Source: Leptospirales bacterium (GTDB lineage: Bacteria > Spirochaetota > Leptospiria > Leptospirales > Leptospiraceae). Taken from it: a DNA stretch of 64,000 bases. Both the position numbers and the translations under genes were made by a program. The stretch lies in assembly GCA_013297885.1 (NCBI GenBank), contig JAAFIR010000008.1:1-64000 (forward strand). The letters run 5' to 3'. A model generated the notes under the pieces. The model saw nothing but the letters and a program-made list of their open reading frames with translations. It did no database searches and was not told where the DNA came from. Positions 19,635 to 21,301 of the stretch are shown piece by piece; the first letter of the stretch is position 1; each line of letters begins with the position of its first letter.

Positions 19635-19715
19635 GCGATTCGCTCTTCGAGCGACCGAGCTAGAAAATGCTTCGGTGCTTCGCACTCGCTTTGCGACATT
19701 TTCTATCTCTATCGC
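19635..19715 (-). repeat. Type 2 two-hairpin intergenic element, copy C
   Basis: On the plus strand: GCGAT (19635-19639), a small hairpin TCGCTC-TTC-GAGCGA (19640-19654), CCGAGC, then hairpin TAGAAAATG (19661-19669) with CATTTTCTA (19697-19705), TCTCT and ATCGC (19711-19715). The ends pair as GCGAT/ATCGC. The complement aligns with type 1 elements (GCGATAGAGA, hairpin, GCTCGG, hairpin, ATCGC), so the strand is given as minus. It lies immediately upstream of flaA. Confidence 0.8.
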
Positions 19716-19790
19716 TTTATTTAAGTTTCGGAAATTTTTTAGTTTTGGTTAATTGGTTTTCAGGTAAATTTCTAAATGCAGAAGAAACCA

Positions 19791-19931
19791 GCGAAAGTGA
19801 TTGAAGCGGAAATCCTTTTACTTTTTTTTAAGATATTTTTAAAATTGAGTTAAATTGTAAAAGATTGGAGTGAAAAGCACGGTTTTTTTTGTAAAGAAGT
19901 TATATATAACTTCTTTATAAAAAAAATTCGC
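19791..19931 (+). repeat. Type 1 two-hairpin intergenic element, copy D
   Basis: GCGAA (19791-19795), AG, TGATTGAAGCGG, a first hairpin with short outer stem TCCTTTTAC/GTAAAAGA and an A+T-rich interior, then TGGAGTGAAAAGCACGG, a T-run, a perfect 24-base palindrome AAAGAAGTTATA/TATAACTTCTTT (19893-19916), an A-run, TTCGC (19927-19931) and CC. The element ends six bases before the stop codon of the cytochrome c peroxidase gene on the other strand, so it can act as that gene's 3' hairpin. Confidence 0.85.
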
Positions 19932-19936
19932 CCAAA

Positions 19937-20899
19937 CTATTTTCTTGTTTTATCGGTTAATGCATTTAAAAAAGTTTTGATCGATTGAACTTCAGCAGAA
20001 GTCAAATCTTTGTTTAATTGGTGATAAGCCATTTTTGTAATTGCTTCTTCAACTGTTTTAATGCTTCCATCATGAAAATAAGGAGCTGTCAACATAACAT
20101 TTCTAAGCGAAGGAACTTTGAAAAAATATTTATCTGCTTCATTTTTTGTTACATTAAATCTACCAAGGTCTTTAGTTTCGTAAGGATTTCTTTCACCTAA
20201 TTTTCTGTAAGAAGTTGCACCCATTGCAGCTCCATAATGACAACTAACACAACCGGTATCCATAAAAGTTTTGAGACCTTCAACTTCATCAGATGTCATG
20301 GCTTTTAAATCACCATTCATCCAATCATCAAAACGATCAGTTGTTTTAAGAGTTCTTTCAAATGCAGCAATTGCTTTTGCTAAATTATCATAACTTAATG
20401 CAGATTTATCGCTAGGAAATGCTTTTTTAAATTTTTCTGGGTAATCAGTTTTTGAAAGTTTATCAAGAACTGCTTTTTCACTTGGCATAGCCATTTCACC
20501 AGGATTTAAAATTGGACCTTTTGCTTGGTCAGCTAAAGTTTCTGCTCTTCCATCCCAAAATTGTGCAAGATGAAAACCTGCGTTTAAAACAGTTGGAGAA
20601 TTTCTATCTCCTCGTTTTCCAAATGCACCTGGGGAAGTTGGCTCATTGTCAACACCACCTGCTTTGCCTTCAATATTATGGCATGAGTTACAAGATTGTT
20701 TATCATTTGCGGAAAGTTTTACATCAAAATATAATTCTTTACCAAGTGATATTAATTCAGTTGTATCACCTTCTGACCCGGGCATTTTTTCTGGTAATGC
20801 ACCAAAAGTTTGTTTTGCTTTTTTTTGAAGCTCTAAAGTTTCTTTGGATGGTCCACAAAAAATTGTGAATCCTAAAATTAAAATAAAAATTAATTTCAT
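19937..20899 (-). CDS. Di-heme cytochrome c peroxidase-like lipoprotein
   Basis: Predicted to reduce hydrogen peroxide in the periplasm with electrons from cytochrome c (CcpA/MauG superfamily). A lipoprotein signal ends at Cys15 (FTIFCG). Two heme c attachment sites are present: CNSCH at residues 70-74 and CVSCH at 217-221. Between them are AFGKRGDRNSPTVLNAGF and FWDGRAETLADQA, both hallmarks of bacterial di-heme peroxidases, and the C-terminal VPSLRNVMLTAPYFHDGS block. Length 320 matches. It is transcribed away from nadC across elements E1 and E2. Confidence 0.93.
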   Translation of the reverse strand: MKLIFILILGFTIFCGPSKETLELQKKAKQTFGALPEKMPGSEGDTTELISLGKELYFDVKLSANDKQSCNSCHNIEGKAGGVDNEPTSPGAFGKRGDRNSPTVLNAGFHLAQFWDGRAETLADQAKGPILNPGEMAMPSEKAVLDKLSKTDYPEKFKKAFPSDKSALSYDNLAKAIAAFERTLKTTDRFDDWMNGDLKAMTSDEVEGLKTFMDTGCVSCHYGAAMGATSYRKLGERNPYETKDLGRFNVTKNEADKYFFKVPSLRNVMLTAPYFHDGSIKTVEEAITKMAYHQLNKDLTSAEVQSIKTFLNALTDKTRK

Positions 20900-20975: not shown

Positions 20976-21062
20976 GAGAATTTTTGCTTCGCAAAAACCG
21001 TGCTTTCCTTTTTTGTCAAAATTTTTTATAAAAAATTTTGACACCAAGTCAATCACTTTCTC
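20976..21062 (-). repeat. Type 1 element, copy E1 (inverted partner of E2)
   Basis: On the minus strand: GAGAA (21058-21062), AG, TGATTGACTTGG, hairpin 1, GGAAAGCACGG, hairpin 2 TTTTTGC-GAA-GCAAAAA, TTCTC (20976-20980). Hairpin 1 is a perfect 30-base palindrome (21014-21043) without a loop. The closing pair changed from GCGAA/TTCGC to GAGAA/TTCTC on both sides, and a G-T and a T-A pair can extend it. E1 and E2 are head to head with a 46-base spacer that itself starts CTAGTGT and ends ACACTAG-like. Confidence 0.85.
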
Positions 21063-21108
21063 TAGTGTAGAAAAACTTTTCTGATTTTAAAAGTTCTTTT
21101 CAACACTA

Positions 21109-21301
21109 GCAAAAGTGATTGGAGTGGTGCAGCTCGAAGAGCGAGGCAGTCTATCAGTGGGCTTTAGCACACTGATAGACCATAGCCACAAAAAGCACGG
21201 TTTTTTTTACCTAACACAATTCTATTTGTATTGAAATAAATTTCAATTAGCTCCTTTCCCTAAAAGGGAAGGGAGAGAGGGTTAGGTATAAAAAAATTTG
21301 C
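21109..21301 (+). repeat. Type 1 element, copy E2 with long second hairpin
   Basis: GCAAA (21109-21113), AG, TGATTGGAGTGG, a small hairpin GCTC-GAA-GAGC, hairpin 1 with perfect 11-bp stem (21149-21159 with 21170-21180), AAAAGCACGG, a T-run, then a long hairpin 2 whose base is ACCTAAC (21209-21215) with GTTAGGT (21281-21287), an A-run, and TTTGC (21297-21301). The closing pair is GCAAA/TTTGC, again compensated. Inside hairpin 2 lies a second small stem around TTTCCCTAAAAGGGAA. The element ends 32 bases before the nadC start. Confidence 0.8.

Follow-up and report, generated by a model that had tools for sequence, protein, structure and literature searches.

Two copies of a folded repeat, designated E1 and E2, face each other in the gap between two divergently transcribed genes of a Leptospirales bacterium. 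The locus raises the question of whether the inverted pair is itself the mobile unit, as the sequence-only reading had proposed by analogy with REPINs, or whether two single elements reached the same gap separately. We consider it probable (about 0.7) that E1 and E2 are independently arrived copies of a dispersed Flavo-1 family DNA element, noncoding and palindromic, and that the single element is the unit. Positions refer to the 64,000-nucleotide stretch of DNA that was analyzed (the window), in which the locus comprises the following features.

19937-20899, minus strand: CCP_MauG peroxidase (di-heme cytochrome c peroxidase) gene, from Pfam
20976-21062, minus strand: E1, a complete type 1 (Flavo-1-like) element of 87 nt, from sequence reading and the genome profile
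21058-21062 and 20976-20980, minus strand: P1 arms of E1, GAGAA/TTCTC
21000-21056, minus strand: P2-P3 arm of E1, with P2 GTG (21054-21056)/CAC (21000-21002) around hairpin 1
20981-20997, minus strand: hairpin 2 (P4) of E1, TTTTTGCGAAGCAAAAA
21063-21108, no strand: 46-bp spacer with two family 5' leader motifs (TTTTCAAYACTA), one leading into E1 and one into E2
21109-21301, plus strand: E2, a complete type 1 element of 193 nt, from sequence reading and the genome profile
21109-21113 and 21297-21301, plus strand: P1 arms of E2, GCAAA/TTTGC
21115-21198, plus strand: P2-P3 arm of E2, with P2 GTG (21115-21117)/CAC (21196-21198) and a branched hairpin 1 (about 21124-21189), drawn from family homology; the whole-element MFE fold of E2 is without P1 and P2
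21201-21296, plus strand: hairpin 2 (P4) of E2, TTACCTAAC...GTTAGGTATAA
21334-22230, plus strand: nadC/QRPTase gene, from Pfam

Direct reading of the sequence bore out the head-to-head arrangement across 46 bases. E1 reads GAGAAAGTGATTGAC...GGAAAGCACGG...TTCTC from 21062 to 20976 on the minus strand, and E2 reads GCAAAAGTGATTGGAG...AAAAAGCACGG...TTTGC from 21109 to 21301 on the plus strand. Each copy does have its own matched closing stem, as had been claimed, and the Pfam identities and strands of the flanking genes agree with a position within a divergent peroxidase/nadC gap. The profile of genome copies scored E1 at 45.9 and E2 at 40.5, with the P2 triple fully paired in both, and the E2 head pattern matched once in the window versus zero matches expected from shuffling. 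An inverted repeat at 21014-21043 is hairpin 1 of E1; two others link the elements (21042-21074/21097-21129, 82% over 33 nt; 20993-21006/21192-21205, 100% over 14 nt), and E1, spacer, and E2 can be folded as a single long hairpin. The spacer had been described as beginning CTAGTGT and ending ACACTAG. Its ends are indeed inverted, but the outermost C and G already belong to the elements, as their first bases, and the spacer proper runs TAGTGT...ACACTA. This inversion is explained by the leader TTTTCAAYACTA, a motif located ahead of element heads across the family. The peroxidase-nadC neighborhood was recognized in none of the loci of seven relatives, which are too distant for alignment of intergenic DNA; several of them clearly have a different gene directly upstream of nadC.

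Aligned genome copies of type 1 share the skeleton GCGAA-A-NNG-ATTGA-(hairpin 1)-GAAAG-CNN-GG-(hairpin 2)-TTCGC-CC, and the element folds as a three-way junction of P1, P2-P3, and P4. The search profile left the P2 columns free and then scored their complementarity. At a score of at least 28 it found 242 elements in 1.971 Mb of the 4.616-Mb genome (about 123 per Mb), of which 147 were in the 1.224 Mb of a first contig set and the other 95 in 0.747 Mb of additional contigs scanned later with profile and threshold frozen. Reversed-sequence controls yielded no elements at this score, and extrapolation gives some 570 elements for the whole genome. The threshold had been raised from 17.5 to 28 because low-scoring chance matches occurred in coding sequence, a choice made after the list of close pairs was known. 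Insertion within genes was discarded as a candidate phenomenon, as most of the 16 matches inside genes at 17.5 were such chance matches.

The arms vary freely and remain paired. P2 was fully paired in 232 of the 242 elements, with many different pair sets (for example, GTG/CAC, GGG/CCC, GAG/CTC, AGG/CCT, and ACG/CGT), and P1, which covaries, could be drawn together with P4 in 238. Copies with an unusual arm carried their own closing arm followed by CC in 70 of 131 cases, versus 26 of 2620 with swapped arms. A pseudoknot between the GG after P2 and the CC after P1 showed no covariation and was rejected. The two hairpins vary largely independently of each other: at a similarity above 0.8, 85 of 20301 copy pairs shared hairpin 1, 11 shared hairpin 2, and 3 shared both.

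A second kind of element, type 2 (GCGATAGAGATACAAAATG...CATTTTGTAGCTCGG-(hairpin)-...ATCGCCCA), has the skeleton and the leader motif in common with type 1; its hairpin 1, CAAAATG/CATTTTG, is itself branched. Its exact pattern matched 35 times in this genome and not at all in the seven relatives. None of the three copies in the window matched an Rfam family at gathering, and the copy at 19635-19715 had no Rfam match at E values up to 5. The further type 1 elements of the window, which also encodes a FlaA-family protein (Pfam) that suggests a spirochete, have hairpins that differ from element to element. These other elements are as follows.

19635-19715, minus strand: type 2 element (GCGATAGAGATAGAAAATG...CATTTTCTAGCTCGG...ATCGC), head-to-head with the next element across 75 bp
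19791-19931, plus strand: neighboring type 1 element, Rfam Flavo-1 match at 19786-19888 (50.2 bits, gathering score 42)
464, 36204, and 51440, plus strand, and 5988, 24354, and 62299, minus strand: heads of further type 1 elements
45731, minus strand: head of a weaker type 1 element
19715, 35958, and 55148, all minus strand: heads of type 2 elements
19715/19791 and 35958/36201: head-to-head pairs that include a type 2 element

The family resemblance is to Flavo-1 (RF01705), which Rfam files as "sRNA" of unknown function (Weinberg et al. 2010, PMC2864571). Both E1 and E2 contain the Flavo-1 core skeleton, NNG-ATTGA and GAAAG-CNN with a hairpin between. The core common to the family and Flavo-1 reads GATTGAAGCGGAAATCCTTT...AAAGATTGTAGCG.AAAGC and includes the short P2 helix. 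E1 matched the Rfam model at 24.6 bits, under the gathering score of 42, and E2 had no match at E values up to 10, because many of the hairpin 1 types in this genome differ from the Rfam consensus. The only matches at or above gathering in the whole window were at 19786-19888 and at 458-545 (42.0 bits). Among the matches listed for the organism's own genome, 93 had E values up to 1, and 71 of these were at or above gathering. Near several contig ends (C44:458, C30:85, C56:40, C53:2453, C31:49819, C16:7869, and others) there are 88-bp Flavo-1 matches of near-equal score, which suggests a subtype located within, or adjacent to, a long repeat at which the assembly is interrupted.

The 76 positions of the Rfam model represent P2-P3 alone and include neither P1 nor P4, in contrast to the elements described here, nearly all of which have both. 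By eye, copies in three congeners (G001-G003), in the genomes G006 and G038, and on plasmids of Leptospira kobayashii and Paraclostridium bifermentans also have matched closing arms together with a P4 hairpin. The larger fold therefore extends beyond this genome. The two P. bifermentans plasmids (L262 and L264) are small and non-mobilizable, and their host phylum is unexpected. Exact patterns matched 1 to 4 times in each of three congeners versus 100 times here, and controls indicate that some matches elsewhere are chance. G001 has three real copies in 0.23 Mb, all from stretches selected for containing one. No Flavo-1-like DNA was found in viral contigs with one exact pattern, and phages gave no convincing Flavo-1-like match. 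The passages on Flavo-1 consulted in open full-text papers, exclusive of supplementary files, subscription journals, and preprints, contained no description of a mobile repeat or of a three-way junction.

The Rfam classification raises the possibility that E1 and E2 are divergent structured RNAs, either sRNAs or 5' leaders, with transcription starting at promoters within the spacer and running outward to the peroxidase gene on one side and nadC on the other. Each element does read toward its adjacent gene, and the conserved leader precedes heads as a promoter element might: its best score exceeded 6 in 62.5% of 240 copies, and in the first contig set it was found in 59%, versus 8% in a control stretch. 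However, the leader was equally frequent in all gene contexts, whether the head faced a gene end or a gene start, and therefore it is not simply the promoter of neighboring genes. A general role as a promoter or 5'-UTR signal was rejected on the same independence from gene orientation, and upstream of the leader the logo shows nothing that is clearly -35-like. The leader may be part of the element or may reflect a target preference. In a substantial minority of copies it is displaced by 8 to 11 nt, with a hairpin-like insert (e.g., AGCGAAGCRT) between leader and GCG. The possibility that a single element occupies one half of a palindromic target and faces an empty half-site was rejected, as such half-sites were not enriched (15% versus 14% on the same strand, 208 elements).

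The elements also lack a marked orientation or gap-class preference relative to genes. It had been pointed out that the pair lies in both 5' regions. This is true of E1 and E2 but is not typical of the family, which occupies all gap classes. Among the 220 elements within called gaps (the other 22 of the 242 fell outside them), 114 were in tandem, 60 in divergent, and 46 in convergent gaps, roughly in proportion to summed gap lengths of 124, 68, and 33 kb, with convergent gaps somewhat overused.

Mispairs provide a further means of distinguishing RNA from DNA. Where selection acts on a stem as RNA, G-U pairs are expected to be a much commoner result of single-step changes than A-C mispairs. Counted without favoring either kind, G-U versus A-C mispairs numbered 10 versus 6 in P1, 6 versus 2 in P2, 3 versus 2 at the base of P3, 28 versus 18 in hairpin 1, and 81 versus 85 in hairpin 2. 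A small control, 19 acceptor stems of tRNAs on these contigs, gave 10 versus 3. This nearly all-Watson-Crick pairing without a clear G-U excess favors a role at the DNA level. The arms, hairpin 2 above all, behave like DNA palindromes on account of this balance, whereas the core pairs and hairpin 1 lean to G-U (47 versus 28 when summed), and the core may have an RNA role. In the material from Flavobacterium psychrophilum that PMC9723704 provides on this point, Flavo-1 matches lie sense or antisense to transcribed regions, with many outside them. Taken with the leader and gap data, these results make the divergent-RNA explanation unlikely.

If the pair were instead a REPIN-like doublet, the two inverted elements and their spacer would form one hairpin that transposes jointly, driven by a RAYT. 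The resemblance to REPINs and REP doublets (as characterized in the sections of PMC3116915 relevant here; on REPINs and Leptospira repeats, see also PMC12306157) is considerable: both are short palindromes of intergenic DNA that occur as inverted pairs around a short spacer, to which is added the capacity of E1, spacer, and E2 to form the long hairpin noted above. Inverted pairs are also the only close arrangement. Neighbors less than 300 bp apart were head-to-head in 7 of 7 cases in the first 1.224 Mb, E1/E2 included, and in 6 of 6 in the further 0.747 Mb (one-sided binomial against 1/4, 6e-5 and 2e-4, respectively). The count is 12 of 12 when E1/E2, which prompted the question, is removed and 17 of 17 when type 2 elements are added. 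At the looser threshold of 17.5, 8 of 10 close pairs were head-to-head and 2 were tail-to-tail (C53:43435/43525, which overlap, and C44:122911/123143); the latter two are absent at 28, as is one head-to-head pair that also overlaps.

The inverted order that the sequence-only reading took from REPINs holds for all 13 close pairs, but the pair as a mobile unit is not supported. There are 12 inverted pairs besides E1/E2, but their spacers are not similar: the 13 spacers range from 30 to 235 bp, are mutually unrelated, and have no clear mode, as opposed to the preferred distance of REPINs. Pair partners are unrelated to each other, with a mean core similarity of 0.11 versus 0.20 for random copies, the same P2 triple in 2 of 13 pairs (chance, 0.22), and the same closing arm in 1 of 13 (chance, 0.24). 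REPIN doublets, in the part of PMC3116915 that deals with them, predominate with a singlet-to-doublet ratio below about 2; here only 26 of the 242 elements are in close pairs, giving 216 singlets and 13 doublets. Nor are doublet members better conserved, with a mean profile score, our proxy for the pairwise identity used in that study, of 45.3 (26 elements) versus 47.0 for singlets (216). Elements occupy 207 of 842 gaps, about a quarter. Two-element gaps number 13, every one of them head-to-head, whereas 24 to 34 gaps with at least two elements would be expected under random placement. Therefore, there is no surplus of pairs; rather, tail-to-tail and tandem pairs are missing.

One clear case of dispersal concerns a single unit. 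The pair member C33:21064 (minus strand) and the solitary C33:39289, whose nearest type 1 neighbor is 1.8 kb away, are near-identical from GCG through the last bases of P1, with unrelated flanks on both sides and no more than a few bases of the leader in common. Another near-identical couple, C26:37758/33370, has about 35 bp of left flank in common, leader included, so that copying may at times extend beyond the single element. A search with the flanks of 147 elements against 1.224 Mb of the organism's own genome recovered no empty sites. From the unrelated partners and spacers, the lack of a pair surplus, and the copying of a pair member alone, we conclude that single elements probably disperse and that pairs would arise by separate arrivals.

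A mobilizing enzyme of the REPIN type would also be expected, and the genome has a single Y1_Tnp (Y1 transposase) gene, C42:66004-66300, whose product is RAYT-like (NCBIfam NF047646, 44.8 bits, cutoff 80). The gap upstream of it contains one single type 1 element, at a distance of about 0.55 kb, which says little because about a quarter of all gaps hold one, and the Y1 loci of four relatives have no type 1 element. Y1 genes number 0 to 3 in relatives with few elements, compared with the single gene here, and the Y1 transposase was not convincing as mobilizer, as its copy numbers across relatives do not track element numbers. Palindromes of the form CAGTGGGT..ACCCACTG lie close on both sides of the Y1 gene, and they recur as hairpin 1 or hairpin 2 of several Flavo-1 elements, a pattern reminiscent of one repeat family nested within another. 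The REPIN doublet is contradicted as a general rule, and we consider it very unlikely for E1/E2. The idea that paired inverted copies serve as cassette ends that flank and mobilize a gene draws on the mostly opposite orientation of neighbors with one gene between them (26 of 31), but it is scarcely credible given that genes are flanked both tail-to-tail (11) and head-to-head (15) by unrelated partners and that the enclosed head-to-head genes look ordinary by eye (e.g., MerR-type, transglycosylase-like).

The independent arrival of single elements has to account for why close pairs are always head-to-head. Part of the answer lies in how single elements are placed. The tail was nearer to a gene in 117 of 163 and the head in 45, with median distances of 41 bp for tails and 105 bp for heads. 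This tail-to-gene geometry favors head-to-head pairs; if placements were independent it would yield them only about half the time, and therefore a further cause of the orientation rule is needed. Neighbors in the same orientation are scarce with zero to two genes between them (10 of 73), versus about half beyond 5 kb, and the scarcity with one or two genes between exceeds what the geometry alone explains. Recombinational purging of direct repeats is a possible cause.

We propose that each element by itself is the unit, consisting of a fixed skeleton and of arms that may change freely provided that they stay base-paired. It would spread by the copying of a folded single strand, recognized through skeleton and fold rather than arm sequence, with the copying enzyme probably acting in trans. 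Single elements have their P1/P4 end, or tail, on the side of the closer gene and their head facing mid-gap, and where a gap contains another element the two are only ever head-to-head. Such an arrangement produces REPIN-like pairs without a REPIN-like unit.

Other dispersed repeats offer partial parallels. ERIC and BOX are intergenic, strongly folded, many-copy elements of roughly 100 to 200 bp, and BOX is modular; compared by description, they differ from the elements here, in which the skeleton alone is conserved and each copy differs in its arm sequences. In the attC sites of integrons, too, the strand is folded, the ends are conserved, and the arms are free to vary, a likeness, again by description, in principle only. 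Unlike REPINs, the elements of this genome have no convincing link to its sole RAYT-like gene, and each unit is a closed multihairpin structure. Whether Flavo-1, listed as a small RNA from 2010 onward, represents a class of transposing DNA element in its own right, a three-way junction with fixed skeleton and arms that are freely exchangeable but strictly Watson-Crick, which an enzyme copies as folded single-stranded DNA and which accepts second copies head-to-head only, is a more tentative proposition, and we advance it as a conjecture.

These findings give a widespread Rfam family without a known function a fuller structure, with P1 and P4 seen in spirochetes and on clostridial plasmids, and identify a genome in which the family has expanded to hundreds of copies. 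The count of G-U versus A-C mispairs is a simple way to separate function as RNA from function as DNA. The E1/E2 locus also carries a caution, in that inverted pairs alone are no proof of REPIN-type mobility, and the head-to-head-only rule provides a testable constraint on the entry of such repeats into small intergenic gaps or on their survival there.
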